Assembly (NCBI GenBank): GCA_009773645.1
Contig: WSYB01000018.1
Span: forward strand, 197,928-242,369
Length of the DNA stretch: 44,442 nt
From: Geobacteraceae bacterium
Lineage (GTDB): Bacteria > Desulfobacterota > Desulfuromonadia > Geobacterales > Geobacteraceae
Direction: 5' to 3'
The first letter of the stretch is position 1. Each line of letters begins with the position of its first letter. The notes under the pieces were generated by a model. The model was not told the DNA's origin, searched no databases, and saw only the letters and a list, made by a program, of their open reading frames with translations. Of the stretch, positions 7,879 to 28,700 are shown in pieces. Position numbers and translations under genes: made by a program.

Positions 7879-7941
7879 GGTAAAATGTGTTAGACTGCTC
7901 CAAGGTAAATTTCAGGCAAGCAATTTGAAGGGAGAGCATAA

Positions 7942-8984: not shown

Positions 8985-8986
8985 GA

Positions 8987-9367
8987 TTACCTCGGCATCC
9001 GCATCATCCCGAAGATGGCGCCGCTGGCGAAGGCCAGGAGCCAGAGGGAGTAGATGGTGAGGCTGACCCGGTGAAAGGCGCGGTTTATGCGCTCCGCCTG
9101 GTGCATGAGGGTGGCGATGAGGGCCAACAGGAAATGGAACGCCATCCCTGCCAACGAGAGGATGCCGGAGAGGTTGTGCCATTCCGGGGCAGGTCCTGCC
9201 GCTCTCGCATAAAGGTTCATCTGGTGGGTTCCCAGGTAGTCGAAAATGAGGCCGATGCCGAAGACAACCAGGTGCTTGAGATGGAGCCCTTCATGCCTTC
9301 CGCTGAAGACGGCGTAGGTATAAAAGCCGAGGGCAAGGTTCATGAATATGACCGCTTTCAGAAGCAT
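8987..9367 (-). CDS. HsmA/TIGR03987-like four-helix membrane protein
   Basis: 126 residues, almost all membrane: four hydrophobic segments near residues 1-22, 30-50, 66-90 and 102-122, separated by short loops with histidines (HEGLHLKH, LGTHQMN). The pattern resembles the small HsmA-type inner-membrane family, whose biochemical role is unclear. GAGGAA lies about 7 bases before the ATG at 9367. It follows trmL on the same strand, with a large inverted repeat between them that may uncouple expression. Confidence 0.65.
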   Translation of the reverse strand: MLLKAVIFMNLALGFYTYAVFSGRHEGLHLKHLVVFGIGLIFDYLGTHQMNLYARAAGPAPEWHNLSGILSLAGMAFHFLLALIATLMHQAERINRAFHRVSLTIYSLWLLAFASGAIFGMMRMPR

Positions 9368-9401
9368 GAATTCTTTTCCTCTGTAAAAAGGAACGAAGAA
9401 T

Positions 9402-9461
9402 AAGGAACGAGGTTCGAGGATTAAGGTTTTTCCTAGTTCCTAGAACCTCGTTCCTCGAACC
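9402..9461. repeat. Nested inverted repeat (hairpin) between trmL and membrane-protein gene
   Basis: AGGAACGAGGTTC (9403-9415) pairs with GAACCTCGTTCCT (9443-9455). Overlapping this, GTTCGAGGA (9412-9420) pairs with TCCTCGAAC (9452-9460). The two registers give alternative stems. It begins right after the trmL stop codon on the minus strand and may terminate or stabilise that transcript; the sequence looks like a dispersed intergenic repeat. Confidence 0.6.
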
Positions 9462-9932
9462 TTAACTTAGTCTCCCCGTCTGGCGCAATGCCTCATAGAG
9501 GACGATTCCCGCCGCCGTCGACAGGTTGAGGCTCCGAACCTTGCCGAAAATCGGGATGCGCACGGTGTTTTCCCGGTTTGCCTCGATCAGTTCATCGGGC
9601 AGTCCTTTGGTCTCCTTGCCGAAGACAATGAAGTCCCCTTCCTGAAATCCGGCATCCACATAGCACTTTTCCACTTTCTTACTGGTATAGATCAACCGGC
9701 CGCCGGGATAAGCGGCTTTCAACTCAGCCAGGTCCTGCCAGTAGCGGATATCCACCTCCTGCCAGTAATCGAGACCGGCCCTTTTCAAGGCTCTGTCGTC
9801 AGTGGAGAATCCCAGCTTTCCCACAAGGTGGAGTATGCTGCCGGTGGCTCCGCACAGGCGGGCGATGTTGCCGGTGTTAGGCGGTATTTCCGGTTCCAGC
9901 AGGACGATATGGAATGGTTTGAACGGCTCCAT
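9462..9932 (-). CDS. trmL: tRNA (cytidine/uridine-34 2'-O) methyltransferase TrmL
   Basis: 156 residues, the length of TrmL. The SPOUT fold signature is complete: LLEPEIPPNTGNIARLC near residues 11-27, FGKETKGLP (~104-112) and the SAM-binding trefoil knot NLSTAAGIVLYEALRQ at the C-terminus. The enzyme 2'-O-methylates the wobble base of tRNA-Leu isoacceptors in the cytoplasm. AAGGTG lies 5-6 bases upstream of the ATG at 9932. Monocistronic or followed by the HsmA-like gene. Confidence 0.92.
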   Translation of the reverse strand: MEPFKPFHIVLLEPEIPPNTGNIARLCGATGSILHLVGKLGFSTDDRALKRAGLDYWQEVDIRYWQDLAELKAAYPGGRLIYTSKKVEKCYVDAGFQEGDFIVFGKETKGLPDELIEANRENTVRIPIFGKVRSLNLSTAAGIVLYEALRQTGRLS

Positions 9933-10043
9933 TGCACCTTCTTATGCAAAGATTTTAAAATGTATACCACGAATTCGTCCCAGCGGTCTTGCAATTTTTT
10001 CCCTGCGGAGCTATTATGCAAATTTCGATGGCATAAGGCAAAT

Positions 10044-10103
10044 GGCAAAAGGCTAAGGGTCTAAAACCCTTAGCCTTTAGCCTTTAGCCATTCGCCTTTT
10101 GCC
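10044..10103. repeat. Nested inverted repeats upstream of serA
   Basis: GGCTAAGGG (10051-10059) pairs with CCCTTAGCC (10067-10075), and the outer GGCAAAAGGC (10044-10053) pairs with GCCTTTTGCC (10094-10103). The block also contains the direct repeat CCTTTAG. It lies between divergently transcribed trmL and serA, so it is unlikely to be a normal terminator; it may be a dispersed repeat or an element in the serA leader. Confidence 0.55.
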
Positions 10104-10162
10104 CGCAATTGGCTGGTTGTTTATTGTTACACCATTAAAATCTTTAGATGCAAGGAGATCAT

Positions 10163-11782
10163 ATGAAAGTTATCGTTACCGATGAGGTCGCCGGCGAAGG
10201 GTTGGCGCTTTTGCAGCAGGACCCGCGGGTGGAACTCGATGTCCGTCTCGGCCTGAAAAAAGAGGAACTGTTGAAGATCATCGGAGATTATGAAGTCATC
10301 ATCACCAGGAGCGGCACTACGGTTGACAGCGACCTCCTCGACGCCGGGAAAAAGCTGAAGATGGTGGCCAGGGCCGGGGTCGGTATCGACAATGTGGACG
10401 TGGATTATGCCAGTGCCAAGGGGGTGATCGTGGTGAACGCCCCCTTCGGTAATACAAACAGTGCTGCGGAGCATACCATGGCGCTTCTTCTGGCCGCCTG
10501 CCGGAATGTCACCAAGGCCAACGCCTGTCTGAAGGGGGGAGAGTGGAAACGAGCCCCGTTTACCGGCGTCGAACTGAAGGGGAAGACCGCCGGCGTGATC
10601 GGCCTGGGGAAGGTCGGCGGACGTGTGGCCACCAGACTCAAGGCCTTTGAGTGCGAGGTAATCGCCTGCGACCCATACATAGCCTTGAAAAGAGCCCATG
10701 ACCTGGGGGTGAAGCTTGTGTCCCTGGAGGAACTCCTGAAGAGCTCCGACATCATCACCGTCCACACTCCCTTGAACGAGGAAACAAGAAACATGATCGG
10801 CGAACGGGAATTCGTCCTGATGAAGCACGGGGTGATCGTCCTCAACGTCGCCCGGGGCGGAATCATCAATGAAGCGGCGCTCCTGGCAAACCTCAAAGCG
10901 AATAAGGTTGCCCTGGCTGCTGTGGACGTCTTCAGCGAAGAGCCGCCGAAATCGGAGTTGATGAAAGAGTTGATTGCCAGCGACAAACTGGTCGTTACCC
11001 CCCACCTGGGGGCGAATACCTTCGAGGCTCAGGTGAACGTGGCGGTCGATGTTTCCCGCGAGATACTCAACTTTCTTGACGAACAGCCGCTGGAAAATGC
11101 CGTTAATATCCCGCGCTTCGACCTTGCGCTCATGGACCAGATGCGCCCCTTCCTCAACCTCATGAGCGTCATGAGCGACTTCGTCATCCAACTGGTGGAA
11201 TCGAACCTGAACAAGGTGACCTTTGCCTATACCGGCAACATCGCCCATTACGACTGCACCCCTCTCACGGTTTGCGGTTTGGCGGCCATTCTGAACCGGA
11301 TGGTGGAACAGGACGTCAATATGGTCAATGCGACGCTGATTGCCGATAACATGGGGATTGTCGTGGAAGAGAACAAGACAACCCAGTCGGAGTCGTTCTC
11401 CAACATGATCACGCTGACCATTGATGGGCCCAATGAGCGGCGCTCCATTGCCGGCACCCTGTTCGAAGGGCTGCCGCGGATCGTCAAGCTGCGCGACTAC
11501 GCCATGGATTTCTCTCCCGAGGAACACATGCTTCTGCTGACCTACGAGGACCGGCCGGGAATGATCGGCAAGATCGGCACCATCATGGGAGGTCGCGACA
11601 TAAATATCGCTTCCATGCACCTGGGAAGACGCGAGAAGAGGGGTGAGGCGATGGTCGTCCTTTCCCTCGACTCGGGAGTGCCGCCGGATGTGGTGGAAGA
11701 ACTGCGTGCGGCGACCGCCGCCACCTTTATCAAACCCCTGTACATGGGGAAGTGCACCCGCGGTTGCGGTTGCGGGGTGTGA
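10163..11782 (+). CDS. serA: D-3-phosphoglycerate dehydrogenase
   Basis: 539 residues; the ATG at 10163 follows AAGGAG. This is the long (type I) SerA: substrate domain, Rossmann NAD-binding domain with GLGKVGG (147-153), catalytic segments NVARGGIINEAAL and TPHLGANTFEAQ, an intervening ASB domain (~315-455), and a C-terminal ACT domain (~465-527) that commonly mediates serine feedback. It oxidises 3-phosphoglycerate to 3-phosphohydroxypyruvate, the first step of serine synthesis. Unusual: past the ACT domain it ends in GKCTRGCGCGV, with cysteines 531, 535 and 537, a possible metal or redox site. The glycosyltransferase gene follows after 14 bases. Confidence 0.94.
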   Translation: MKVIVTDEVAGEGLALLQQDPRVELDVRLGLKKEELLKIIGDYEVIITRSGTTVDSDLLDAGKKLKMVARAGVGIDNVDVDYASAKGVIVVNAPFGNTNSAAEHTMALLLAACRNVTKANACLKGGEWKRAPFTGVELKGKTAGVIGLGKVGGRVATRLKAFECEVIACDPYIALKRAHDLGVKLVSLEELLKSSDIITVHTPLNEETRNMIGEREFVLMKHGVIVLNVARGGIINEAALLANLKANKVALAAVDVFSEEPPKSELMKELIASDKLVVTPHLGANTFEAQVNVAVDVSREILNFLDEQPLENAVNIPRFDLALMDQMRPFLNLMSVMSDFVIQLVESNLNKVTFAYTGNIAHYDCTPLTVCGLAAILNRMVEQDVNMVNATLIADNMGIVVEENKTTQSESFSNMITLTIDGPNERRSIAGTLFEGLPRIVKLRDYAMDFSPEEHMLLLTYEDRPGMIGKIGTIMGGRDINIASMHLGRREKRGEAMVVLSLDSGVPPDVVEELRAATAATFIKPLYMGKCTRGCGCGV

Positions 11783-11796
11783 ATGGATGCTGAGCC

Positions 11797-12549
11797 GTGG
11801 CTGATCCGCAACTTTCCGTGGTTATCCCCGCCTTTAATGAGGAAGCCCGCCTCCCTTCCTGCCTGGAAAGGGTGATGGCATATCTGGCGCAGGAGGGAAA
11901 TGACTATGAAGTCATTGTCGTTGATGACGGCAGTTGTGACGCTACCCCCCTGATCGTTGAATCACTGGCAGGGGAAAATGCGCATCTGAAGCTCATCAGG
12001 CTTCCCGAGAACAGGGGGAAGGGACATGCGGTCAAGGCGGGCATGCTTGCGGCCCGCGGCAGCCTGCGATTGTTTGCCGACGCCGACGGCGCCACTCCCA
12101 TCGAGGAGCTGGAGCGGCTCAAAGCAGCCATTAACGGGGGGGCGGATGTCGCCATAGCCTCACGGGCACTCAAGGGTGACGGCATAACCGTGAGCGACAC
12201 GCTGCACAGAAAATTCATGGGGACGGTATACAACCTCATCGTCCGGACTCTTGCCGTCAGGGGGATTCACGACACGCAGTGCGGCTTCAAACTGTTCACC
12301 GAAAAGGCTGCCGCTGCTCTCTTCCCCTTGCAGCGTATCGATGATTTCGGTTTTGATGTGGAACTTCTCTTTTTGGCCGGGAAACAGGGATTCCGGATCG
12401 CTGAGGTGCCGGTCAACTGGACCGACATAAAGGGAACGAAGGTCAAGATTTTCAAGGACTCACTCCGTATGCTGACTGATGTGATTAGGGTCAGGCTCAA
12501 TGATGCGCGCGGCGCCTACCGCGGAAATCCGGGGGCGCTATCCTTGTGA
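11797..12549 (+). CDS. Family 2 glycosyltransferase, dolichyl-phosphate glucosyltransferase-like
   Basis: 250 residues from a GTG at 11797 with a poor ribosome site, suggesting coupling to serA. It has the GT-A fold motifs LSVVIPAFNEE (residues ~6-16), VVDDGSCD with the nucleotide-binding aspartates, RGKGHAVKAG, FADADGATP (the DxD metal site), and DTQCGFKLF near residues 165-173. The pattern fits polyprenyl-phosphate hexosyltransferases, which load a sugar from a nucleotide donor onto a lipid carrier at the cytoplasmic face. No C-terminal membrane helices are present. The next gene encodes a polytopic protein and overlaps by 4 bases, which fits a donor-maker plus membrane-transferase pair. 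Confidence 0.87.
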   Translation: MADPQLSVVIPAFNEEARLPSCLERVMAYLAQEGNDYEVIVVDDGSCDATPLIVESLAGENAHLKLIRLPENRGKGHAVKAGMLAARGSLRLFADADGATPIEELERLKAAINGGADVAIASRALKGDGITVSDTLHRKFMGTVYNLIVRTLAVRGIHDTQCGFKLFTEKAAAALFPLQRIDDFGFDVELLFLAGKQGFRIAEVPVNWTDIKGTKVKIFKDSLRMLTDVIRVRLNDARGAYRGNPGALSL

Positions 12550-13958
12550 ATCCCGAAAAATCCCGGAGCACGGTTAAAACCCCCTGGCAAAAGGTCCATC
12601 TATTCCCCGTTGTCGCGGCCGTTATTGCGTTTTTGTACTATGGCAGGTTTCTCGACAATTTTTTCACCTTTGATGACTTCAAATACCTGGAAAACATGTT
12701 CCGGGGACCCATGGATGTGATGCTCGGGTACGGCCAGCTGCGGCTTGTCAGTAATGCATCGTGGTGGCCCCTGTTTGAAATCTCCCGCTTCAATCCCTTC
12801 GGCTACAACCTCTTTGCACTCTTCCTCTATTTTTTCAATGCGGTCCTGTTATATGTATTCCTGTTCAGGCTTCTCCATGATAAAGCAACGGCGTTTATCG
12901 TCAGTACGATCTTTGTTGCAAGCGGTGTCGGTGCGGATGCGGTTTTCTGGAAAGCCACAAACAGTTCGCTCATCAGCCTCTTTTTCTATCTCCTGACCCT
13001 CACCATTTATGTCAACTATCGCAGGACAAACAAGGGGAGGCATCTGGTCCTCTCCGTCGGGCTGTTTGTCCTTGCCATGTTCAGTAAAGAAGAGGCGGCT
13101 TCACTTCCTTTCATCATAGCAGTGATCGATCTTCTGTTCTTTAACGGTCGTGAGGATAAAGCCGGCGTCATCAGAAGGGTTGCGCCGTACGCGGCTATCA
13201 TACTCTTCTATATGCTTGCCAACGCATACATATTCAATTATCTCCTGCATACCCAGGCAGACCCTGCAAAACTTTTCAGGTTCAGACCGATATACTCGTT
13301 GATCGGCGGCGGGACGGCCTTTTATCTCGCACCGGACGGGTTTGTCAGACTCGATGATCCCTTCGTCTATGTAACCGCTCTGTTGATTCCGGTCAGCCTT
13401 ATCTTCGTAAAAGAAAAAAAGCTCCTCATTTTCGGATATGCGTGGGTGTTTTTCACGTTTCTCCCCCAGAGTCTGACAGGGCTTGGCCAGTTCGAACCGC
13501 GGGTGATCGTCAACTCCATCAGCCGTTATCTCTACATTACCTCGATAGGTTCATCGCTCGTATTCGGAGCGGTGCTGACCGGCATCCGGGAGAGATTTCC
13601 CGGGAAGGTCCGGTTTGCCGTTTGCTCACTGTTTTTGACGGCTTTTGTCTGGATAAATTACAGCCGGGTCCAGTCGCGGGGGAATGAGTGGCGGGCCAGC
13701 GGCGCGCCGGTTGAGGATTTTATTTATTCCCTGAAAGGGGTCATGCCGGCCTTTCCTGACCGGGCCCATGTCCATGTGGTCAACAGTCCGACCGGCAGGG
13801 CGTTTATCCAGCAGGCCATGCGGGCGTTCTACGGCACTCCCGACATCCTTTGGGTTGACGACCCGCGCACGGTAAGCCTGAAGGCCGGCGACTCACTCTT
13901 CGTCATCTTCTATAATCCCGGCGTCGGCCAAGGGGTGGAAGTCTTGCGCTTACAATAG
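12546..13958 (+). CDS. Polytopic membrane protein, possible GT-C glycosyltransferase
   Basis: 470 residues from a GTG overlapping the previous stop (GTGA). About 10 hydrophobic segments are visible, beginning with residues ~17-32 (LFPVVAAVIAFLYYG). The first periplasmic loop carries paired acidic residues in FFTFDDFKYLEN, the position used for catalysis in GT-C enzymes such as PMT/ArnT (GT39/GT83). The C-terminal ~90 residues are soluble. The partnership with a polyprenyl-phosphate glycosyltransferase suggests it transfers a lipid-linked sugar outside the membrane onto a protein or envelope glycan. Family assignment is by topology and the DD pair only. Confidence 0.7.
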   Translation: MNPEKSRSTVKTPWQKVHLFPVVAAVIAFLYYGRFLDNFFTFDDFKYLENMFRGPMDVMLGYGQLRLVSNASWWPLFEISRFNPFGYNLFALFLYFFNAVLLYVFLFRLLHDKATAFIVSTIFVASGVGADAVFWKATNSSLISLFFYLLTLTIYVNYRRTNKGRHLVLSVGLFVLAMFSKEEAASLPFIIAVIDLLFFNGREDKAGVIRRVAPYAAIILFYMLANAYIFNYLLHTQADPAKLFRFRPIYSLIGGGTAFYLAPDGFVRLDDPFVYVTALLIPVSLIFVKEKKLLIFGYAWVFFTFLPQSLTGLGQFEPRVIVNSISRYLYITSIGSSLVFGAVLTGIRERFPGKVRFAVCSLFLTAFVWINYSRVQSRGNEWRASGAPVEDFIYSLKGVMPAFPDRAHVHVVNSPTGRAFIQQAMRAFYGTPDILWVDDPRTVSLKAGDSLFVIFYNPGVGQGVEVLRLQ

Positions 13959-16244: not shown

Positions 16245-16260
16245 TGGCACGGCTATTGCC
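16245..16260 (+). promoter_or_regulatory. Sigma54 (RpoN) promoter, -24/-12
   Basis: TGGCACGGCTATTGCC. The -24 TGGCAC and -12 TTGC elements are exact and the GG-to-GC spacing is the required 10 bases. The predicted start is about 60 bases upstream of the ATG at 16331. A sigma54 activator is encoded in the same locus (20700-22034). Confidence 0.8.
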
Positions 16261-16330: not shown

Positions 16331-17614
16331 ATGAGAACGAGAGAGAAACGAGTAGCTGTGTCATTGGCCTTTGCCCTTGCTCTGGGACTTACGGCGCAGG
16401 TCTGGGCATCCGGTCCGGATGAGTTGGAGTTGAACAACAACGACGTCGTCGTTGCCGACGACAATGGAGCGGCCGCGAATGACGGCTCCAAAGCCGTTGG
16501 CGGTAATGTGCTGAGTGACAACACCGTAACAAAAGATTCCTACAACCAAGACAACGACACCAAAAACGTCAATGTTACCAAAAACGACAATGACACCAAA
16601 ACTGTCGATGTCACCGTCAAGAAGGATTCCAACAACGACAACTCCAACCAGAACAACAAGGACATCGATGTCACCGTGAAGAAGGATTCCAACAACGACA
16701 ACTCCAACCAGAACAACAAGGACATTGATGTCACTAAGACCACCAATGTCAAAGTGACGAAAGACTCCAACAACCAAGACAACGACACCAAAACCATCAA
16801 TGTCACCAAAAACGACAACGACACCAAAACCATCAATGTCACCAAAAATGACAACGACACCAAAAACGTCGATGTCACCAAGACCGACATCGACAAGGCC
16901 AAAGCCGACAATGGTTCCATGGCTGCGAACGACGACGCGAGCATAGAGAATAAAACCAAAGCCGATAACGGCAGCGCGGCGGCCACCAATAATTCAACCG
17001 CATCAGTGGAGGATAACAGCGACAATAGCACCAACGATTCCTTCAACAAAACCGTCACCGTCACCAAGACTAAAACCGAAAACGAGGCCGAAAATGGGAG
17101 CGCGGCGGCTATTAACGGGGATGCCACCGTAACCAAGATCAAGGATGTTTCCGGAGGGAGCGCAGTCGCCGCTACCGGCGGAACCGCGTCGGTCGCCGAC
17201 AGCAACAACACCGACAACAGCGTCAATAACAGTGCCGGCGACAACGGGATCGTGGCGAATGACAGTGCAACAATCGACGCCAAATACAATTCCGACAACA
17301 AAAACAAGGCCGATAACGGCAGCGCGGCGGTTTTCGGCAGCGGCTCGGCATCCGTGAACAGCAGCACTAACGATTCCTTCAACAATACTACCACCATCAC
17401 CATCCGCGATGTCGACGTCGAGATGGCCTCAAGTCAGTTGGCAGGCGAGGTGTCCAACAACAGCATCATGACTCCTCCCGATGACGACACCTTCAGAACG
17501 GGCGACAACAGCATAGGGGGCTCCGTGACCACCACCGGCATCTCGGTGTTATCGCAGAACACCGGTGTTGACTCCCTGGTGCAGCAGTCCGTCAACGTCC
17601 AGGTCAACAAGTAG
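16331..17614 (+). CDS. Secreted Asn/Asp-rich repeat protein, candidate amyloid subunit (FapB/FapC-like)
   Basis: 427 residues from the ATG at 16331 (GGAGGA 6-11 bases upstream); Sec signal peptide residues 1-24 (...TAQVWA). The mature protein is dominated by N, D, T, K, S and V. Repeats: two 20-residue units around KKDSNNDNSNQNNKDIDVTV (~95-135), 12-residue units NDNDTKTINVTK (~145-185), then Ala/Gly-rich units starting GSAA with DSFN..TVT strands (~210-365). The C-terminus ends GISVLSQNTGVDSLVQQ, a motif shared with the next two secreted proteins of the operon. No cysteines. Amyloid function is inferred from the neighbouring FapD- and FapF-like genes and the repeat composition; the repeats are not the published FapC repeats. 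Confidence 0.72.
   Translation: MRTREKRVAVSLAFALALGLTAQVWASGPDELELNNNDVVVADDNGAAANDGSKAVGGNVLSDNTVTKDSYNQDNDTKNVNVTKNDNDTKTVDVTVKKDSNNDNSNQNNKDIDVTVKKDSNNDNSNQNNKDIDVTKTTNVKVTKDSNNQDNDTKTINVTKNDNDTKTINVTKNDNDTKNVDVTKTDIDKAKADNGSMAANDDASIENKTKADNGSAAATNNSTASVEDNSDNSTNDSFNKTVTVTKTKTENEAENGSAAAINGDATVTKIKDVSGGSAVAATGGTASVADSNNTDNSVNNSAGDNGIVANDSATIDAKYNSDNKNKADNGSAAVFGSGSASVNSSTNDSFNNTTTITIRDVDVEMASSQLAGEVSNNSIMTPPDDDTFRTGDNSIGGSVTTTGISVLSQNTGVDSLVQQSVNVQVNK
16612..16735 (+). repeat. Tandem 60-bp repeats inside the amyloid-like gene
   Basis: The 60 bases at 16621-16680 recur at 16681-16740 with only a few changes, encoding 20 residues twice. Downstream (~16775-16880) a 36-base unit encoding NDNDTKTINVTK recurs about three times. 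Near identity points to recent expansion by slippage or recombination. Confidence 0.9.
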
Positions 17615-17628
17615 GCAGTTGACCTTTA

Positions 17629-17671
17629 CCCGGCGGCGTGCCCCACGGCCGCCGCCGGGAGTTTTCTTTTT
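17629..17671 (+). terminator. Hairpin with T-tract between amyloid gene and downstream genes
   Basis: CCCGGCGGC (17629-17637) pairs with GCCGCCGGG (17651-17659) and is followed by AGTTTTCTTTTT. It fits a partial terminator that would give much more transcript for the first gene than for the four-gene remainder of the operon, as expected when a major fibre subunit precedes export genes. Confidence 0.72.
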
Positions 17672-17722
17672 AACCGGAGCCTGGAAATCCTGGGGCAACG
17701 GCCCACAACAGGAGGCAGGAAA

Positions 17723-18124
17723 ATGCGAAGATCAACGAAATCTCTGATTGCCATACTGGTTCTTTCCGGGAGCGCGCTTCTGGCGCAGGGTTCACCGGCA
17801 GATGAGATCGCGCTGGCTTCGGTCGGGCAGACGGATTTGTTAAATGTTTCCGGACTGGGGCAGGCGGTATCAAATGAGAATCTGGGGGACCAAACCGGTC
17901 GCCAGGAGATTAAACTAGACCAAATGTACATGCAGTTGAGCACCTCGGACCAGAAAGCCCAGGCGGACAGCAACAGCATAATTAATTCCGCAATCACCAA
18001 CGGCGCCAACGCCATCGGCGGCAGCGCCTTTTCCCAGGCGAGCGGGATCATCACGGTGATCCAGAACTCGGGCAATCAGGTCCTCATCCAGAATGACATG
18101 ATCATGAATTTAACGGTGAAGTAA
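17723..18124 (+). CDS. Small secreted protein of amyloid-like operon (FapA/FapB-like partner)
   Basis: 133 residues with a Sec signal peptide (residues 1-22, ...SALLAQG). Residues 50-60 read SNENLGDQTGR, alignable with the double-glycine leader TDQELAAMRGG of the 18833 product, though here the site is GR. The C-terminus, SGIITVIQNSGNQVLIQND, carries the same G-x5-6-QN-[ST] motif as its two operon partners. Gly/Asn/Gln/Ser-rich and without cysteine, it could be a minor fibre subunit or nucleator. GGAGG precedes the ATG; 10 bases separate it from the C39 peptidase gene. Assignment to a Fap subunit is by context. Confidence 0.68.
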   Translation: MRRSTKSLIAILVLSGSALLAQGSPADEIALASVGQTDLLNVSGLGQAVSNENLGDQTGRQEIKLDQMYMQLSTSDQKAQADSNSIINSAITNGANAIGGSAFSQASGIITVIQNSGNQVLIQNDMIMNLTVK

Positions 18125-18134
18125 GAGGGACACC

Positions 18135-18836
18135 ATGGAACGGCTTCCGGCAAAACGCAGTGCCCTTCTCATTATTCTCCCCCTTCTAATTGCGGCGTCG
18201 CCGGCGCGGGCGGGTTTGGTATCCGTGCCCGGCGTGTCCGGCGGCGCCTTTACCGTCAAGGTAACCAGCATGAAGGAAGCGCGCTTCCGCTCCACGATCC
18301 GGCAGCAGCACGATTTCAGCTGCGGCTCCGCGGCGCTGGCCACACTGTTGACCTATCATTACGAGGACACCGTCAGTGAGCAGGAAGTGTTCAAGGCCAT
18401 GTTCGACACGGGAGACCAGGAAAAGATCCGCAGGGAAGGCTTCTCACTGCTCGACATGAAGAATTACCTGGAGGCCGACGGTTACAGGGCGGCCGGCTAC
18501 AGAGTCTCCCTCGACAGGCTGGCGGAGATCGGTGTGCCGGCCATTGCCCTGATTAACATCAAGGGCTATAAGCATTTTGTGGTGGTCAAGGGGGTATCGG
18601 CGAGAGAGGTGTTGCTGGGAGACCCGGCCGCGGGCGCCAGGACCGTTACCCGCACCGAGTTCGAGTCCATGTGGAACGGGCTCATTTTTGTAATACTCAA
18701 CAAGAAGAACGTGGCAGTAAACCACTTCAACCGTGAACAGGAATGGCACGTCAAAGCAAATGCGCCGCTGGGACTGGCTTTGAGCTCCAGCGACCTGGCC
18801 AGTGTAACCATGTTACTGCCGGGGGTATTACGATGA
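18135..18836 (+). CDS. Periplasmic C39 double-glycine peptidase (FapD-like)
   Basis: 233 residues: signal peptide (residues 1-26, ...AASPARA) and a stand-alone C39 papain-like domain (~45-185). Catalytic residues are readable: Gln57/58 and Cys63 in RQQHDFSCGSAAL, His147 in YKHFVVVKG, Asp163 in LLGDPAAG. There are no ABC-transporter domains, so it would act in the periplasm, as FapD does. C39 enzymes cut after GG leaders; a matching leader is encoded by the very next gene, which overlaps by 4 bases (ATGA). FapD is needed for Fap amyloid export in Pseudomonas; the same role here is inferred from locus content. Confidence 0.85.
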   Translation: MERLPAKRSALLIILPLLIAASPARAGLVSVPGVSGGAFTVKVTSMKEARFRSTIRQQHDFSCGSAALATLLTYHYEDTVSEQEVFKAMFDTGDQEKIRREGFSLLDMKNYLEADGYRAAGYRVSLDRLAEIGVPAIALINIKGYKHFVVVKGVSAREVLLGDPAAGARTVTRTEFESMWNGLIFVILNKKNVAVNHFNREQEWHVKANAPLGLALSSSDLASVTMLLPGVLR

Positions 18837-19345
18837 AGACAACAGTGAAGAAACGTGTTATGCAGACCTTCCTGGTGCTGGCAATGGCGATGCCGGCAAG
18901 TCATGCATCTGCCGCGGATTCAGCGGAATGCAAGGGTTGCGGCGCCGCCACAGACCAGGAACTGGCGGCCATGCGCGGCGGCTATGTTGCGGGTGACGGG
19001 CTGGAAATCACCTTCGGCATCGAAAGGGCGGTTTTTGTCAACGGCATGCTGCAGGCGGTCAACACCCTGAATATCCCGAAATTGGGTTCGGGACCGGGTC
19101 AGGCGTTGCCGGACCAGCTCCTTGACAACATGCTGATCGTGCGCCAGAACGGTGCGGGGAACAGCATTTCACCGGCTTTGAACAGCCAGCAGTCAGGGCT
19201 TTTTACACTCATCCAGAACAGCCTCGACCACGCGGTCATCAAAAACGTCACCCAGATCAACGCCTCCGTAAACGTCCTCAATACTTTCCGCGACATGAAC
19301 ATGAGGTCCCTGATGAATCAGCAACTGGTCAACGCGGTGAAATGA
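18833..19345 (+). CDS. Secreted protein with double-glycine motif (FapE-like / C39 substrate candidate)
   Basis: 170 residues; the ATG at 18833 overlaps the peptidase stop codon. Sec signal peptide (1-27, ...HASA), then a CKGC pair (Cys33, Cys36), then TDQELAAMRGG (residues 40-50). This last matches the ELxx(I/M)xGG leader consensus recognised by C39 peptidases. After the GG come hydrophobic strands (LEITFGIERAVFVNG) and the shared motif SGLFTLIQNSLDHAVIKN (~113-130). Fap systems have a CxxC-bearing accessory protein (FapE), so a minor subunit or export partner is likely. Cleavage at residue 50 is a prediction from the motif and the coupled peptidase. Confidence 0.7.
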   Translation: MKTTVKKRVMQTFLVLAMAMPASHASAADSAECKGCGAATDQELAAMRGGYVAGDGLEITFGIERAVFVNGMLQAVNTLNIPKLGSGPGQALPDQLLDNMLIVRQNGAGNSISPALNSQQSGLFTLIQNSLDHAVIKNVTQINASVNVLNTFRDMNMRSLMNQQLVNAVK

Positions 19346-19364
19346 TCATTTCGACCGGTGCCGC

Positions 19365-19416
19365 GCAACAAAAAACCGTCAGTCCCATGAGCCGGGACCT
19401 GACGGTTTTTTGTTGC
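19365..19416. terminator. Strong bidirectional terminator between convergent operons
   Basis: An 18-bp perfect stem, GCAACAAAAAACCGTCAG / CTGACGGTTTTTTGTTGC, with an inner TCCC/GGGA stem. It lies between the plus-strand amyloid operon and the minus-strand FapF-like gene and serves both. Confidence 0.93.
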
Positions 19417-19418
19417 GT

Positions 19419-20639
19419 TCACTTCCCCCCCAGCAAGAAACTGGTCGGCAGCCGCATCGTCAATTGCACGTTGGAAGCGGCCGGCGTAAGTCCCGCACCG
19501 AGAGAGAAATTGACGGTGGTCTTGTCGGTCAGCCGGTAAGAGCAGCCGAAAAGCAGGCTCCCCACCTGGGTGATGATCGAGCCCGGTATTTCGGTGCCGT
19601 CCCTTTTGGGTTTGCCGAGTATGATATGGTCGTAACCGATGCTGAAGGAGGACTTTTCGTTCAGCGCCACGCCGATGCCGAGATTGAAACCGATGGTGTC
19701 GCCCGGGTCCAGTCTCCCCTGGCCGGCGACATCGCGCTCCATGTTCCACATGTAGCTGATGGTGCCGAAAAAAACCGCCGGGTCGGAGGAAAATATTGCG
19801 GTTATGCCCGGCTGGAGCCCCCAGAACCCCGATCCGGTGGGAAGTTCGGTCTGCAGCGGCACCCCTGCCGGACTTGTCACATTCTGAGCGGCGGGTACCT
19901 CAAACGGGTCTTTGCCGGTAACGGTCTTGACGCGCAGACTGGCGATGAAGAACGGTCCCTCGCCGCCCGGCTGGTTCAGTTGGTAACGGGGGCCGAACTC
20001 CACGTCGCCGATGTCGTTGCCTTCGGCGTTGAAAACGCTTGCCGGAATCGTTTCGTCACCACTTTTGGTCGGTTCAAAGGAGGTGGAATCGGCACGGCGT
20101 ACGTACGGGACCTTGGCCTCGAATTCCAGGCGGTTGGTGATGCCGTAGCGGGCTCCGAGGGCGGCGATGTACGTGTTGCTGTTGACGTTCCTGACATCGA
20201 TGAGGCCGATGGTGAACGAAGGGATAATGGTGTAGCCGCTCAATGCCACCCGGTTGGATGACGAGTTTACATACTGCAAAGAGGGTTCCAGCACCAGCGT
20301 CCCCCGTGGCGTCAATACCCCCGGCTGTTCGAAGATCGTGGCGATTTCCGGGGGCTTGGCCTCCTGATGTTGTTCAGGCGGGCGCCCGACCGGCTGAAGT
20401 GATGTCTCGTCTTTCTTTGGAACGGATTGCGGCTGTGTCGGCCGGCTTTCTTTCTGTTCGGCTTTTTTAGAGGCCGGTTTGCCCTGGGGCGGGGCTTCGC
20501 TTTGCGTCTTGGTTTCCTGGGCTACGCGGGTTTTGGAATTGGTTGAGGTGGAAGTCTCTTCGCCTGGAGCCGGCGCACTAAAGAGCAGGATGACGGACCC
20601 CCAGACACAAACCATAATTCTGGTGCGGTGTGAACTCAT
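19419..20639 (-). CDS. FapF-like outer-membrane beta-barrel transporter
   Basis: 406 residues. Signal peptide (1-26), then a Lys/Glu/Gln/Pro-rich periplasmic segment (~27-125), then a beta-barrel opening with PEIATIFEQPGVLTPRG and LEPSLQYVNSSSNRVALSG, which resembles the start of Pseudomonas FapF barrels. Alternating strands continue (IIPSFTIGLIDVRNV, ARYGITNRLEFEAKVPY) to a terminal strand ending FLLGGK. FapF forms the trimeric pore that exports Fap amyloid subunits. Here the N-terminal region is less clearly coiled-coil. AAGGGGGG precedes the ATG. It is 60 bases downstream of the sigma54 activator gene, so probably in its transcript. Confidence 0.78.
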   Translation of the reverse strand: MSSHRTRIMVCVWGSVILLFSAPAPGEETSTSTNSKTRVAQETKTQSEAPPQGKPASKKAEQKESRPTQPQSVPKKDETSLQPVGRPPEQHQEAKPPEIATIFEQPGVLTPRGTLVLEPSLQYVNSSSNRVALSGYTIIPSFTIGLIDVRNVNSNTYIAALGARYGITNRLEFEAKVPYVRRADSTSFEPTKSGDETIPASVFNAEGNDIGDVEFGPRYQLNQPGGEGPFFIASLRVKTVTGKDPFEVPAAQNVTSPAGVPLQTELPTGSGFWGLQPGITAIFSSDPAVFFGTISYMWNMERDVAGQGRLDPGDTIGFNLGIGVALNEKSSFSIGYDHIILGKPKRDGTEIPGSIITQVGSLLFGCSYRLTDKTTVNFSLGAGLTPAASNVQLTMRLPTSFLLGGK

Positions 20640-20699: not shown

Positions 20700-22034
20700 T
20701 CACATATTAATCTGGAATTTGTTTATCAGTCGGTAGAGCGTCACCCGCGATACTCCGAGCTGACGCGCCGCTTCCGACACATTATTCATGTTGAGTTGCA
20801 GGCTGTTCTGTATTGCCTCCAGTTCGGCTCTCTCGCGGGCTTTGTCCAGCGACAGCATATTTCTTGTCGTAACGGGCTTGTCCAATCCGAGATCGGCGGG
20901 CGTGATCAGGCGGCTTTCACTCATTACTGCGGCGCGTTTTACGCGGTTGATCAACTCGCGTACGTTTCCCGGCCAGTGGTGATTATACATGGCGCGGAAA
21001 GCCTTTTTGCTGAATCGTTTCACTTCACGCCTTTCATGCCGGCAAAATTCCTCCAGGAAAGTCTGCGCCAGCAATTCGATGTCACTTTCCCTTTCGCGCA
21101 ACGGGGGCATTCGAAGACGCAGTACATTGAGCCGGTAATAGAGGTCTTCTCGAAAACGCCCCTCTCGCACGGCGTTTTCAAGATTGATATTGGTGGCGGC
21201 AATTACCCGAACGTCAATGGGCATGGTCCGGTTAGAGCCGATGCGTTCTATGGTCTTTTCCTGCAGAAAACGGAGCAGGTTGACCTGAAGTTCCAGGGGC
21301 AGATCGCCGATTTCATCCAGAAAAACCGTCCCCCCTGCCGCTGCCTCGATCCGCCCGATCTTTCGTTGGAATGCGCCGGTAAAGGAACCTTTCTCATGGC
21401 CGAACAACTCGCTCTGAATCAGGTTGGTCGGCATGGCCCCGCAATTGACCGCAACAAACGGCAACGTGTTGCGCGCGGAATGAAAATGAATCGCCTGCGC
21501 CGCCAGCTCTTTTCCGGTGCCGCTCTCTCCGGTAATAAGGATCGGCGAATCCGAGCTCTGCATCTTGCGCATGTGTTGGTAGAGCTCCTGCATGACGGGG
21601 CTTGTCCCGATCATTTGATACCCGCCGATATTTTTGTAAGGGGTCACGAACCGGCTCTTCAGTGCGGTCTTGCCGTAGGCATGACCGAGGGTAACCTGAA
21701 GACGCATGGAGTCCACCGGAAGGGTATGGAAATCGTAAAAATTATCCATTATAAACCTGCAAACTTCCGGTGACTGCAAGCAAGTTGTGGGTATCAACGC
21801 TAACCACTCCATGGATTTGTTTGCAAGAATAACCTCCTCAATGGTTTCCAGGGCAAATTCATGTGGATCGGTAAACTGTATGAGACCGATGAAGAAGTTA
21901 CCCTTGCCGATGAGAACTTTGGCGTCGGCTGCATTTGTCACTGTCTGAATATCCCAACCCGCTGAGTCGAGTTCCTTTATGGGTACATGGGACAATGCAT
22001 CCAGGCTAAGAATTAATATTTCTCGTGTTGCCAT
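20700..22034 (-). CDS. Sigma54-dependent activator with VpsR-like pseudo-receiver
   Basis: 444 residues. The N-terminal ~125 residues look like a receiver fold, but the usual phospho-acceptor Asp after beta-3 is replaced (FFIGLIQF), as in VpsR-type regulators. The AAA+ domain (~140-375) is complete: Walker A GESGTGKE (169-176), the sigma54-contacting loop GSFTGA (216-221), Walker B VFLDE, and [16 protein letters not shown] Fis-type helix-turn-helix lies at the C-terminus ([18 protein letters not shown]). An AGGAG site precedes the ATG at 22034. It likely activates the sigma54 promoter at 16245; VpsR itself controls biofilm matrix and binds c-di-GMP, which fits this context. Confidence 0.88.
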
Positions 22035-22758: not shown

Positions 22759-25700
22759 ATGTCTGATTTAATGGATAAGAAATATATATTGTCCATGATG
22801 TTTTTTGTCGTGATTTTTCTTTTAGCCGCAAACGAGACTTATGCCGAAGCCCCGACGGCTACCAGCGCGAGCATAACCACTCAAGAGGACACGGCGAAGG
22901 GGATCATTCTTGAGGCCAGTGATGTAGATGGGGACCCGCTGACCTACAGTGTCGTAACGACACCAGTCCATGGCGTACTGACCGGCACGGCTCCAAGCCT
23001 GACCTACACACCGGAAGCCGACTATAATGGTCCTGACAGCTTCACCTTTACAGCCTACGACGGCACTGCAGACTCGAACACCGCCACGGTGAGCATCACC
23101 GTCGCCGCGGTGAACGATCCGCCGGTGGCTGCCGGTCAGAGCGTCATCACCAACCGCAACACGGCGACAGCCGTCACTCTTGCCGCCTCCGATGTGGACG
23201 GCGACACATTGACCTACAGTGTCGTCTCGCAACCATCCCACGGGGGCTTGAGCGGAACGGCGCCGAACTTGACTTACACGCCGTCAACCAGGTACAGCGG
23301 CAGTGACAACTTCACCTTCAAGGCCAATGACGGCACGGTATATTCCAATGTAGCCACGGTCAGCATCACGGTCAACTTCACCAACGTGGCGCCAGAGGCA
23401 AATGCCCAAAGCGTCACTACGGCAGAGGATACGGCGAAGGGGATCACCCTGTCCGCCACCGATGGGGATGGGGACCCGCTCACCTACAGTGTCGTAACAC
23501 AACCGGCTCACGGCACACTGACCGGCGCCGCTCCGAACCTGACCTACACGCCTGCGGCCAATTATGATGGTTCCGACAGCTTCACCTTCAAGGCCAACGA
23601 TGGTACTGTCGATTCGTCCACCGCCACGGTGAGCGTTACCATCACCGCGGTAAACGATGCACCGGTGGCCAACGCCCAGAGCGTCACTACGGCCGAAGAC
23701 ACGACCAAGGCGATCACCCTCACCGGCAGCGATATAGACGGCAACCCGCTAACCTACAGTGTCGTTGCACAACCGGCCCACGGGACGCTGACCGGCACCG
23801 CTCCCAATCTTACCTACCAGCCTGCGGCCAACTATAATGGTCCTGACAGCTTCACCTTCAAGGCCAATGACGGGACGGCTGATTCGGCCGCAGCCACGGT
23901 GAGCCTCACCGTCACCGCGGCCAACGACGCCCCGGTGGCCCAAAATGGCACAATCACCACCAATGAGGACACAGCGGCTACTGGGACTCTCGCGGCGACC
24001 GACATCGAAAATACCCCGCTCACTTACTCCATCGTCAGTCAGGGGAGCAAGGGGACCGTCACCATCACCAACGCGGCTACCGGCGCCTACAGCTACATCC
24101 CGAGCGCCAACGCTAACGGTTATGACAGCTTCACATTCAAGGCGAGCGACGGCAGCGTTGATTCCAACATAGCAACCGTCACCGTCACCATCACTGCGGT
24201 CAATGATGCGCCGGTAGCGCAAAACGGCATCCTCTCCACCAATGAGGACACTGCGGCTACGGGGACTCTCGCAGCTACCGACATCGACAGTGCCTCGCTC
24301 ACATACTCCATCGTAAACCAGGGGAGCAAGGGGAATGTCACCATCACCAACGCGGCGACCGGCGCCTACAGCTACACCCCGAATGCCAACGCCAATGGTC
24401 CCGACAGCTTCACCTTCAAGGCCAGGGACGGCAGCCTCGATTCCAGCACAGCAACCGTCACCATCACCATTACGACGGTCAATGATGCCCCGGTGGCCAA
24501 CGGCCAGAGCGTAACCACGGCCGAAGACACGGCCAAGGCGATCACCCTCACCGGCAGTGATACTGACGGCGATCCGCTGACCTACAGTGTCGTAACGCAA
24601 CCGGCCCACGGGGCGCTGACCGGCACCGCACCGAACCTGACCTACCAGCCTTTGCTCAACTACAATGGTCCTGACAGCTTCACCTTCAAGGCCAATGACG
24701 GGACGGCTGATTCGGCCGCAGCCGCGGTGAGCCTCACCGTCACTCCTGTCAACGATGCGCCGGTGGCGGCAAACGGCACCCTCTCCACCAGTGAGGACAC
24801 GGCGGTTACGGGGACTCTCGCAGCTACCGACATCGACATCGCCTCGCTTACGTACTCCATCGTTAGCCAGGGGGCCAAGGGGACCGTCACCATCACCAAT
24901 ACTGCGACTGGCGCCTATAGATACACCCCGAATGCCAACGCCAACGGTTCTGACAGCTTTACTTTCAGGGCCAGGGACGGCAGCCTTTATTCCAACACTG
25001 CAACCGTCACCGTCAGCATCACTCCGGTTAACGATGTGCCGACAGCTCCGACAACCAATGCCCCGCCAAATGGGACATTCAATATTAATGAAGTCACGAC
25101 CCTTACCCCTGCTCTTGTGGTCAACAACTCGACGGACCTGGACCTGGACACCCTGAGTTACACCTTCGAGATAGACATGGTCGATACCTTTGATAGCTCC
25201 AACAAGCAGACATCTCCAACTTTGACCGGAGGCTATGGCACTACGAGCTGGACCCCGGCGGCCTTAAGCGACAACACCACCTGGTACTGGCGCGCAAAGG
25301 CAAACGACGGCTCGACCGACGGCCCGTGGATGACCACCGGCAGCTTCTTCGTCAACCAGTTCAATGACGCACCCGACCCGCCGGCCCTGGTCAATCCGCC
25401 CAATAATGGCGATGTGATTTCGCTTGCGCCGACGCTCACAGTTCAGGCAACAGACATTGATCACGACAGCCTCACCTATGATTTTGAGGTATACTTGGAC
25501 AGTGGTCTCACAAATAGATTCGCAAGAGGTACAATGCAGGGGACAAGCTGGAGAGTCACTCCACCTCTTCTGGACAACACCCGCTATTTCTGGATAGCTT
25601 ACGCAGTAGATGTGAAAATCAACCCGGAAGACGATCACGGCGCATATAGCCGCCCGATGGCGGTAAGCTCTTTCCTCGTCGATAGCAACGGCATAAACGA

Positions 25701-28700
25701 CCCGCCGACCATTACCATAGACGCCCCGGGCGCAACCATCAATAGCACAAGCAGCCCAAGTTACACCATCCGCTGGACCGATACAGACCCGGACAGCGAT
25801 GCTACCATCACTCTCTATTTTGACCACGCCAACAGCGGAAACAACGGCACCCCGATAGTCACCGGCATTAGCGAGGATGATCCCGCCAACAGCTACACCT
25901 GGAATACGTCGGCCCGTCCCGACGGGACCTATTACATCTATGCCAAGATAGAGGACGAAGCAACTTCCGTTTACTCATTATACGCCGGCCCCGTCATTAT
26001 CGACAGGACCAAGCCCGCCGCGCCGTCGATAACCGGGATAACTCCGACCAACAACACCCAACCCACCTGGAGCTGGAGTTCGGGGAGCGGAGGCAACGGG
26101 CCATACCGGTACAAGCTCGACAACGACGATCTGACCACCGGAGCTGTGGAAACACCCGCCACGACCTTTACTCCGGCTACGGCATTGAACCAGGGAATCC
26201 ATACCCTCTACGTGCAGGAGCGTGACGCGGCCGGTAACTGGTCCACGACCGGCAGCTTCGCCATTGATGTGGACACTGTCGCTCCGAGGATAACCGGCGC
26301 TGCCTCGACCACGGCCAGCGGCTTTTACAAGGCGGGGAGCATCATCAATGTCACGGTGAACTTCAGCGAGCCGGTTTCCTCCACCGGTCTGACCATAGTC
26401 TTTAATTCCGGCGCTTCCTTTACCACTGGAGTGTTGCCCAATGTAAACAGTTATAGCGGAACATACATAGTAGGGGCCGGGGAGAACACATCCGACCTGG
26501 GCATAACGGGCATCACCGGAACCATTACCGATGCCGCAGCCAATGGGACAGTCACTTCGCAAATTCCCGCCGGAAATAATATAGACGATACAAAGGCGAT
26601 TGTGATCGACACCACAGCTCCCGTCGTAAGCGCCGGGGCGAACCAGACTAGAAACACATTTTTCACCCAGACCGCCATTGCTTCCGATATCAACTTCATG
26701 ACCTATGCCTGGAGCAAGCAGGCGGGACCGGGGGAGATCGTCTTTGGAACACCGACCGTCCTGTCAACCGCGATTTCTGCGAGTGTAGACGGGACCTATA
26801 CCCTGCGCTTTACGGCGACGGACGCCGCGGGCAACTCCGCTTCGAGTGACATGACGCTGGTATGGGATACCACCGCGCCAAGAGTGATCGCCGCTACTTC
26901 AACGACGGCAAACGGCCATTACAAGGCGGGAAGCGCCGTTAATGTCACGGTGAACTTCAGCGAGCCGGTTTCCTCCGCCGGTCTGACCATAACCTTGAAT
27001 GCCGGTGCATCAGTTACTACCGGGGCATTGACCAATACTGCAAGCTTCAGCGGGATCTACACCGTTGCAGCAGGGGAGAACTCGGCCGACCTGAACGTAA
27101 CCGGCATCACCGGAACCATTACCGATGCCGCAACCAACGGGACAACCAATCCGGCCGTACCAGCCGGGCAGAACCTTGCCGATGCAAAAGACATAGTTGT
27201 CGACACCACCGCACCCGACACTGCCATCAACGGCCAGCCCGCCAACCCGTCCGACTCCAAGACCGGGAGCTTTACCTTCAGCTCGCCGGACAACACCGTT
27301 ACCTTTGAGTGCAGCATAAATGCAGGAGCTTATGCCGCCTGCATTTCTCCTTATAACTTCAACCTCAGCGCCCTTTCCGACGGCAACCACACCTTCAGCG
27401 TCAGGGCCAAAGACCTGGCCGCAAATATCGACCCGACACCGGCAAGTTATACATGGATGATAGACACTGTAATGCCGGCAGCCGCCATCAACGGCGCTCC
27501 GCCAAGCCCGACCAACGCCACGACCGCCACTCTGACTATCGGTGGAGACGAAGTTGTCGCTTACAGATACAAACTAGACGCAGGAGCTTACTCTGCCGAG
27601 ACCCCCATCACAACCGGGATAAGCCTTGCATCCCTTGGCGAAGGGGAACACACGGTCTCCGTTGTGGGCAGGGACAGCGCCGGCAACTGGCAGGCTGAAG
27701 CAAACGCCACGACAAAAACCTGGATGGTGGACACTCAAGGCCCGGTCTTTGTTGAACCAATTTCAGTCATACCCAACGGATCATATACCAAAGAAACACC
27801 CCAAAACATCAGAGGAGAAGTCAAAGAGACCAACGGCGTGCCGAAACTCACTATTACGGTCGATGGCACCAGCGCTTCCAAACTCTACGATGTGATGGTG
27901 ACGGCCGATCCCGATCAAACAAAAGAAAATATTTATGATTTCTCACAGGCCATTGAGCTCTTTCCCGGAGTCAATACCATTACTATCATAGCCGCAGACC
28001 TGGCCGGGAACGAGACCCTGGACACCAGAACCGTCACCTACGATACAAACGGCCCCACAATTATTCTTGAAACCCCGAAGGACAACAGCGCGTCCGCCAC
28101 GTCATTTGTTGAGGTCACAGGGACCGTTGATGAAACTGCGGACATAGGGATATATATTGAAAACAGTTCAGGGAAAAAACTTGCGGCAAGCCTTGCCGGC
28201 GTAACTGCCAAGTTCCAGGCAACTGTATACTACGCCCCCGGCACCAACACCATCGAGATAACCGCCACCGACCTGACGGGGAACCCTAATACCATCAAGC
28301 GGACCGTGACCTTTGACGACCTGAAACCCTCCCTTGCCATAACCGACCCCCCCCAGGACCTGAGGACCGACCTGAGGAGTATGGTCATAAAAGGGACCGT
28401 GTCCGACGCTCTGAGCGCGGTGACCGTGACCATGACAAAGGACGCCGAGACCTTTACGCCGTCGGTTGCGGACGGCGCGTTTGCGCAGGAAGTAATATTT
28501 ACCGAGGACAAGGTCTATCACGTTATTGTCAAGGCAAAGGACGAAGCGGGGAACGAAGCAAGTGTGCAACGGAACATCATTTTTGCAAAGCCGGCCAAAG
28601 GCGACATTAACAACGACTTGAGGGTGAACATGCTGGACGCCCTCATTGCGCTGCGGATTTCCGTGGGACTGCTGCCGCAAACCGACAACGACCTTATCAA

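Follow-up and report, generated by a model that had tools for sequence, protein, structure and literature searches.

A Fap-related locus of a Geobacteraceae bacterium with predicted double-glycine leaders on the partners of its FapD-type peptidase

We describe a five-gene locus in a stretch of 44,442 nucleotides from a Geobacteraceae bacterium (assembly GCA_009773645.1, contig WSYB01000018.1, positions 197,928 to 242,369 of the forward strand; hereafter the window). The locus encodes three small secreted proteins, here called P1, P2 and P4, together with a C39 peptidase and an outer-membrane barrel related to FapD and FapF of the Pseudomonas Fap system. Judging by its homologies, signals and gene order as read from the sequence, and by the conservation of a leader and a promoter site, we consider it probable, though well short of assured, that this is a sister system to Fap for the export and assembly of a protein fibre outside the cell, with a leader-cleaving C39 peptidase and sigma-54/VpsR control. 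New here is that the probable substrates of FapD can be named together with a predicted cut site, a point that the literature leaves unsettled.

A first-pass annotation had read the locus as a Fap-like export system. Its five open reading frames (ORFs), spanning 16331-20639, were recovered where it had placed them, with P1, P2, C39 and P4 on the forward strand and the barrel on the reverse; the C39 and P4 genes overlap by 4 nucleotides (18833-18836). The two barrel peptides that it quoted and NDNDTKTINVTK (P1 residue 161) are present in the translations. It had also called three small secreted proteins and a periplasmic C39 peptidase, and both calls hold: P1, P2 and P4 all have Sec-type signals, and the peptidase matches Pfam Peptidase_C39 at E 6.4e-24 and has a Sec-type signal by inspection. 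Signal peptides were called by eye and with a hydrophobicity rule rather than with a signal-peptide program. What the present analysis adds is the sigma-54 site, the VpsR/sigma-54 regulator and the leaders of C39 type carried by P2 and P4.

16331-17614, forward: P1, candidate major fibre subunit, 427 amino acids, with Sec signal, repeats and a conserved C-terminal module
17723-18124, forward: P2, small secreted subunit and possible FapB counterpart, 133 amino acids, with a weak profile match to FapB repeats
17867-17902, forward: putative C39 leader of P2, VSNENLGDQTGR, residues 49-60
18135-18836, forward: C39 peptidase, FapD homologue with Sec-type signal, 233 amino acids; Q57, C63 (codon 18321-18323), H147 and D163
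18833-19345, forward: P4, FapE counterpart by leader homology, 170 amino acids
18947-18982, forward: double-glycine leader of P4, ATDQELAAMRGG, residues 39-50, with the cut predicted after residue 50, before YV
19193-19282, forward: C-terminal module of P4, SGLFTLIQNS...
19419-20639, reverse: outer-membrane barrel, FapF homologue, 406 amino acids, with a Pro/Lys/Gln-rich N-terminal part

A double-glycine leader in P4, FapE and P2

Homologues were gathered around related peptidases. Among 277 genomes of the window's class, the FapD model (E <= 1e-25) matched in 21 genomes at 22 places, two of which belong to the genome of the window itself (4.74 Mb). An alignment of these 22 peptidases then found at least 585 relatives among 595 candidate stretches in a wider scan of the genome collection. 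From these the 80 best were retained, ranked by similarity to the window's peptidase, so that the sample favours the window's clade, and L044-L046 were dropped as duplicates of same-class loci. The resulting 99 loci (22 from the class and 77 from the wider scan) were all chosen through similarity to the window's peptidase or FapD and queried with profiles built up from the proteins of the window, and some of the stretches are contig ends. For comparison we used 23 stretches with classic Fap, for which 20 of 22 further listed places were taken; FapE exceeds the NCBIfam cut-off in 21 of the 23.

The leader of P4 sits after the Sec signal and reads hydrophobic, S/D, x, x, E/x, L, x, x, x, R, G, G, then F/Y. 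In motif scans, which count the best-scoring match per protein, the site ends in RGG in 82 of 88 P4 homologues, in CGG and VGG in one each (GG is kept in 84 of 88), and in RGR and RGT in one each; the remaining two escaped the pattern and read RAG by eye. The invariant columns of 29 hand-chosen aligned proteins are L44, R48, G49, G50, G71, Q128 and N129, and since four of these seven (L44, R48, G49 and G50) are leader positions, they count for the leader. The consensus of leaders cleaved by C39 peptidases is LSxxELxxIxGG, with GG as the textbook site, and a leader of this type is present in both P4 and P2. A structure model of P4 from 29 sequences, with a predicted local distance difference test score (pLDDT) of 61, was too poor for a fold search; at low confidence it makes residues 41-48, just before RGG, helical, and a helix is expected for such leaders.

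Classic FapE shares this leader. A stretch of the form L[SKTH]DxELxQLRG[KR], or close to it, is present in each of the 24 classic FapE ORFs, 21 of them recognised by pattern and 3 by eye; these stretches read like LKDQELAQLRGK followed by YV or LSDLELSQLRGR followed by FV. Comparison of whole-protein profiles of P4 (70 sequences) and FapE (24 sequences) gave E 2.1e-8 and probability 95 across 31 columns that coincide with the leader stretch; no significant match was found outside it. When the proteins were truncated just ahead of the motif, the values were E 3.5e-7 and probability 93, the whole-protein repeat being stronger. The NCBIfam FapE model (NF058559) reaches P4 at E 0.0096, with 15 of 250 bits. 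We read P4 as a counterpart of FapE and not as an equivalog.

Scans near the peptidase and in P2, P4 and the barrels tie this pattern to the secreted partners of the peptidase. A stricter general leader pattern was matched by 34 of 340 signal-bearing ORFs near C39 on its strand versus a single one of 482 in other parts of the loci; this exception is itself the P4 of its locus (L052). Proteins behind the peptidase in L037, L038, L040 and L041 have LSxxxMxxxxGG leaders though they lie beyond the reach of the P4 profile, and the secreted proteins of L003 and L043 have LSDEEMDLVTAG-like leaders. It has been proposed for FapF, in the accessible text of PMC5557850, and hinted at in that of PMC5135000, that the peptidase acts on the barrel; on such a reading its real target would be the periplasmic extension of the barrel, and the leaders of P4 and P2 would be binding motifs only. 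However, neither GG nor GA occurs in the first 130 residues of the barrel in the window, and the leader-like motif occurs in 8 of 92 barrel N-terminal parts versus 82 of 88 P4 proteins scanned whole, which makes this reading highly improbable in our view.

In P2, the leader motif reaches a score of at least 5 in 62 of 84 homologues, 33 ending in GG and 29 in GR or GK, against 4.8 on average and 11 at most in shuffled P2 controls; the same level is reached by 4.1% of 1878 other ORFs of 100-200 amino acids. P4 and P2 are thus predicted, and probable, substrates of the FapD-type peptidase, with the cut site after the leader.

Classic FapA also contains LSDxDFAxVTSG-like letters with C39-leader spacing, located mid-protein in 19 of 21 full-length ORFs (for example in L160, 2226-2678, residues 77-88). 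We do not claim FapA as a cleaved substrate; the published peptide map, in the part available, has it uncut (PMC5557850).

The peptidase and the barrel

The residues Q57, C63, H147 and D163 of the peptidase are intact and are invariant across the 22 peptidases of the class. NCBIfam FapD (NF058616) matches it at E 7.5e-50 and FilB at 8e-35; both stay below their curated cut-offs, FapD with 169 of 330 bits. Among solved structures, most of the relatives found by its profile, and all of the best ones, are double-glycine proteases of PCAT/ComA-type transporters. A tree of 64 hand-thinned rows, with support from the Shimodaira-Hasegawa-like approximate likelihood ratio test only, separated 47 rows, including all 43 with P4, from the rest at a branch supported at 99. 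The neighbouring group (support 95) unites classic FapD with a further type; L003, the second locus of the window's genome, branches apart with L043 (support 96), and classic Fap as a single group has support 49.

NCBIfam FapF (NF058560) matches the barrel at E 1.9e-45 and FilC at 1.5e-12; here too both lie under the curated cut-offs, FapF at 155 of 700 bits. A search of the PDB returned FapF (5o67) at E 3e-33, the other match up to E 1 being a short photosystem chain at E 0.3. FapF is thus the sole credible solved relative, no unrelated porin matched better, and the call of a FapF-like barrel stands. By inspection alone, the N-terminus shows no evident coiled coil. The barrel could also be pictured as an uptake channel for hydrophobic compounds (Phenol_MetA_deg type) lying merely beside an unrelated secretion cluster, as it matches Pfam PF13557 at E 3.2e-8 and is convergent, in a transcription unit of its own. 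Against this stand the far stronger FapF and PDB matches and the presence of a barrel relative in 92 of 99 loci with varying orientation, and we find the idea hardly credible.

The first-pass annotation had taken the convergent barrel as a departure from the Pseudomonas operon. The convergence is real but not peculiar to the window: the 92 barrels lie downstream on the same strand in 44 loci, downstream on the opposite strand in 37 and upstream in 11, and fapF is separated in 4 of 16 Fap genera according to the portion consulted of PMC3792158.

Distribution of the cluster

The cluster recurs across the class and in other groups. A P4 homologue lies behind C39 in 88 of 99 loci (15/22 in the class, 73/77 in the others), a P2 homologue lies upstream of it in 84 of 99, and 46 of 99 have a P1-like ORF of at least 200 amino acids. 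Within the class, a barrel relative is found in the fetched stretch of 21 of 22 loci, the exception, L035, being near a contig end; together with the recurrence in other groups, this puts the cluster far beyond chance. The loci of the best 80 relatives fall in Desulfobacterota and in Alpha-, Beta- and Gammaproteobacteria, where for some organisms the phylum is our own presumed assignment. On a Croceicoccus plasmid, P2, C39, P4 and the barrel are all matched by the window-derived profiles, while the annotation there has the secreted proteins as 'hypothetical protein', the peptidase as 'C39 family peptidase' and the barrel as 'transporter'. Classic subunits occur in the window's class as well, with FapC in L024 (NF058558, E 2.2e-55, 188.6 bits versus a cut-off of 195). 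In Aidingimonas halophila (L095, overlapping L134), a locus of the new kind directly adjoins a classic Fap locus, which argues that the two are distinct, coexisting systems.

The second C39-barrel locus of the window's genome, L003, lies at about 61.7-64.6 kb of contig C43 of that genome (G000). In the stretch G000:C43:56000-72000 its genes, all on the reverse strand, are the barrel (5685-7076), C39 (6914-7642) and two small Sec proteins (7661-8062 and 8102-8551), with the leader-like AG-type motifs LSDEEMDLVTAG and LTDQLLDAITAG seen by eye. C39, barrel and two small Sec proteins with leader-like motifs are common to it and the window's locus; it differs in having its barrel in the same direction and in its deep branch with L043 in the C39 tree. 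Its secreted proteins gave no match to the P1, P2 and P4 profiles. L043 has, at about 8601-13289 on the reverse strand, four consecutive Sec proteins upstream of its C39-barrel pair, three of them of 421-535 amino acids; inspection by eye shows an LxDxx[LM]xxxxxG-type leader behind each signal, and the locus may represent a multi-subunit variant.

The secreted subunits and their kinship with Fap

The first-pass annotation was right that the main subunit is quite different, as the body of P1 is unlike FapC. P1 is made of Asn/Asp/Thr/Lys/Val-rich repeats without Cys, Asn and Asp amounting to about 28-29%, and its DNA contains a 60-nucleotide unit in 2.2 copies at 97% and a 36-nucleotide unit in 3.3 copies at 90%. 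It matched no Pfam family up to E 1, and its single NCBIfam match, at E 0.57, is meaningless. A structure prediction from 12 sequences (pLDDT 33) was uninformative and unusable for a fold search.

16550-16895, forward: repeat region of P1, 18/36-nucleotide and 60-nucleotide units, DNDTK five times
17501-17611, forward: C-terminal module of P1, GDNSIGG...ISVLSQNTGVDSLVQQSVNVQVNK, common to P2 and P4

Across 50 P1 ORFs the bodies vary, from Asn/Asp-rich in the window and several of its kin to Gly-rich (up to 36%) in many others, while the C-terminal module stays constant. This suggests that P1 consists of a variable body and a constant module for joining or export. In the window's genome, a profile of the module was significant in P1 and P2 only; as a search for orphan substrates elsewhere in that genome it gave nothing significant, the third match having E 0.4. 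P1 as a substrate of C39 was rejected, the GG at KAVGG not being conserved. As an amyloid fibre former P1 is an unproven candidate.

It could be argued that the barrel and C39 export non-fibrous proteins, such as adhesin- or bacteriocin-like peptides with double-glycine leaders, and that no fibre is made. C39 with double-glycine leaders is the usual bacteriocin arrangement, most solved relatives of the peptidase are double-glycine proteases of transporters, and P1 homologues range from Asn/Asp-rich to Gly-rich. However, there is no ABC (ATP-binding cassette) transporter among the five genes, the barrel is of the FapF type, P1 is long, of low complexity and Cys-free, the Gln/Asn module is held in common, and VpsR/sigma-54 regulators occur near both kinds of locus. 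We judge export without a fibre improbable, though ABC-permease-like ORFs do occur upstream in some loci. These were seen by eye about 3.5-5.5 kb upstream of C39 in L025, L027, L028 and L032; none was found among the window's ORFs at the corresponding place.

The profile of P2, compared with that of FapB by hhalign, gave two in-register matches to repeats 2 and 3, one at E 9e-5 with a probability of 59% and the other at E 2e-4 with 46%, which is suggestive of kinship but not proof. The hidden Markov model (HMM) of P2 found 7 weak matches among classic-locus ORFs (E 0.02-0.36), all of them Fap subunits, and the Croceicoccus P2 homologue matches the FapB model at E 0.015. FapA as ancestor of P2 was tried by profile comparison, which gave nothing, and was rejected. 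These matches, the standing of P4 as FapE counterpart and the preserved order relative to FapD and FapE would fit an orthodox Fap system, with P2 as FapB, P1 as FapC with repeats diverged past recognition, and a cross-beta solenoid fibre built from the C-terminal modules.

Other observations speak against it, beginning with the low hhalign probabilities. A profile seeded with classic FapB and run for five rounds over all ORFs recruited classic FapB, FapC and FapE, as well as the classic loci of L024 and L095, yet never P1, P2 or P4, and the NCBIfam scan of P1 and P2 had no FapB or FapC model among its matches up to E 1. P1 has a single module, whereas three FapB/C repeats are almost universal per surveys (PMC12822426, in the excerpts available), and the two kinds lie side by side in Aidingimonas as distinct systems. 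We hold orthodox Fap to be doubtful. The first-pass reading of a Fap-like system survives for the export machinery, where the FapD and FapF models rank ahead of FilB and FilC, and fails where it implied Fap with merely different repeats, the FapB/C repeat being undetected and the peptidase lying in a separate clade. FapA-model matches were absent among the locus proteins in the general NCBIfam scan, no dedicated FapA search having been made; absence of FapA is common in Fap, as far as the available part of PMC3792158 goes.

Promoter, terminator and neighbouring genes

Transcription of the forward genes may start at a sigma-54-type site upstream of P1, and a sigma-54 activator gene lies behind the barrel.

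16245-16259, forward: sigma-54-type promoter site TGGCAC-N5-TTGC, TGGCACGGCTATTGC, ending 72 nucleotides before the P1 start
19364-19417, either strand: perfect 19-nucleotide inverted repeat (19364-19382 / 19399-19417) with A-run/T-run, between the convergent units
20700-22034, reverse: activator with VpsR domain and sigma-54 AAA domain, likely regulator, 444 amino acids, behind the barrel

The pattern TGGCAYN5TTGC has one exact match in the window, where 0.23 are expected by chance and 20 of 100 shuffles hold at least one; genome-wide it has 26 matches versus 10 for the reversed pattern. We surveyed the region from 400 bp upstream to 60 nucleotides inside the first P1-like ORF, allowing up to 2 mismatches, and found a site in 23 of 46 loci versus 172 of 1980 length-matched random stretches (8.7%). 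In 12 of the 23, it lies 74-92 nucleotides before the most upstream start of the P1-like ORF. The window's -24/-12 site is weak alone; its conserved place carries the weight. A scan for sigma-70 promoters found 2, with 2.4 expected. The inverted repeat is probably a bidirectional terminator shared by the convergent units.

The VpsR-type N-terminus has relatives in 36 of 122 stretches. Four of these (L132, L134, L175 and L176) belong to the 23 with classic Fap, most of which are only 8 kb long. In Vibrio, VpsR is a cyclic di-GMP-responsive biofilm regulator, which makes cyclic di-GMP control of this locus a reasonable guess by analogy.

Further along, at 22759-28812 on the forward strand, the window encodes a secreted protein of 2017 amino acids with many immunoglobulin/cadherin-like domains. 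By eye, a stretch at its C-terminus resembles a dockerin, and the protein may be a surface adhesin that accompanies the fibre. Large secreted proteins are similarly placed beside the loci in L025 (1516 amino acids) and L027 (1506 amino acids).

Proposed mechanism

In the sister system that we favour, P1, P2, C39 and P4 would be transcribed from the sigma-54 promoter under the neighbouring VpsR-domain activator. P1, P2 and P4 would cross the inner membrane via Sec and remain unfolded in the periplasm, where the Sec-exported C39 peptidase would cleave P4 after ATDQELAAMRGG, and probably P2 after VSNENLGDQTGR, to release their N-terminal leaders. Removal of the leader would license secretion through the FapF-type barrel. 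Outside the cell, P1 would serve as the bulk subunit, P2 as a minor or nucleating subunit and P4 as a FapE-like surface-linked subunit, the Gln/Asn C-terminal module common to all three being the likely joining element. For the clade at large, the proposal would be that it builds fibres from different low-complexity proteins and that FapD, as a periplasmic double-glycine peptidase, processes FapE in both clades, together with the protein at the FapB position in the new one, and thereby gates secretion; we regard this broader statement as evenly balanced.

Several points weigh against this account. Cleavage and fibre formation, like the place and order of events and the regulation, are steps that we infer, and the motif patterns for the leader were composed with the first motifs already in view. 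Used alone, the P4 HMM reaches just 3 of the 24 classic FapE ORFs at E <= 1. By the HMM and rule used, P4 was not found in 11 of 99 loci and P2 in 15 of 99, and no P1-like ORF of at least 200 amino acids was found in 53 of 99. A convincing motif is missing in 22 of 84 P2 proteins, and the P2 of the window ends in GR, not GG. P1 carries no conserved leader, so that cleavage would concern helper proteins only. Finally, the fit with FapE of Pseudomonas sp. UK4 is partial. It alone lacked N-terminal peptides, over its first ~70 residues (PMC5557850, available portion), while the RG[KR] site in the classic FapE of L132 lies earlier, at about residue 40 from the likely start by eye; a further cut or poor peptide recovery must therefore be assumed.

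Relation to published work

In the accessible parts of the literature, FapD is required in the periplasm with its catalytic cysteine, its target is called unclear, and the Fap proteins are said to lack canonical C39 sites (Rouse et al. 2017, PMC5557850). A 2018 review has the target as yet undetermined (PMC6173800), and a 2025 review names FapE and FapF as proteins presumed to be processed, and no more (PMC12822426), again in the excerpts available. A Pseudomonas leader that ends in RGK or RGR would explain why the C39 site went unrecognised; with GG in the sister clade and RG[KR] in Pseudomonas, the question of the FapD target becomes a one-residue prediction. We found no statement of this leader in the open literature searched, subscription papers, preprints and supplements being outside that scope, and a search for Geobacter with functional amyloid gave no such locus by title and abstract. 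If the prediction is true, double-glycine leader processing, familiar from ABC exporters, would also operate after Sec export.

Homologues of fapD and fapF occur together in five additional phyla, with no description of their partner genes (PMC6173800, available text). Surveys of Fap over GTDB require or anchor on the FapB/C repeat, as the available text of PMC12822426 has it, and because they need these repeats the sister clade is invisible to them; it bears on the description of Fap as evolutionarily fixed in the same excerpts. For Geobacter-like bacteria, the locus leads us to propose an extracellular fibre with a sigma-54/VpsR switch.

Comparison with known systems

Pseudomonas Fap (fapABCDEF) resembles the window's locus in its Sec-exported C39 peptidase, its FapF-type barrel, a FapE-type subunit with a matching leader, a Gln/Asn-type module at the C-termini of subunits and, in some stretches, a VpsR-domain sigma-54 regulator. 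The two differ in gene order, which is P1-P2-D-E with a convergent barrel in the window versus fap(A)BCDEF, and in the end of the leader, GG in P4 of the window versus G[KR] in Fap. The window's peptidase belongs to a separate clade, FapB/FapC repeats are undetectable, and its barrel shows no coiled coil evident by inspection. Fil, whose NCBIfam models FilB and FilC we take to be from Acinetobacter, likewise pairs a C39 peptidase with a barrel of the FapF superfamily. It differs in that its models match the window's proteins at 8e-35 and 1.5e-12, versus 7.5e-50 and 1.9e-45 for FapD and FapF, so that the Fap models outscore Fil for both peptidase and barrel and the locus does not group with Fil by its closest models. 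The ABC exporters PCAT1, ComA and NHLM share a homologous C39 catalytic domain and the logic of the GG leader, whereas the peptidase of the window is a separate secreted protein that would act after Sec export and is without an ATPase domain. On this comparison of sequences, we file the window's locus as a widespread sister system of Fap rather than as a member of it.

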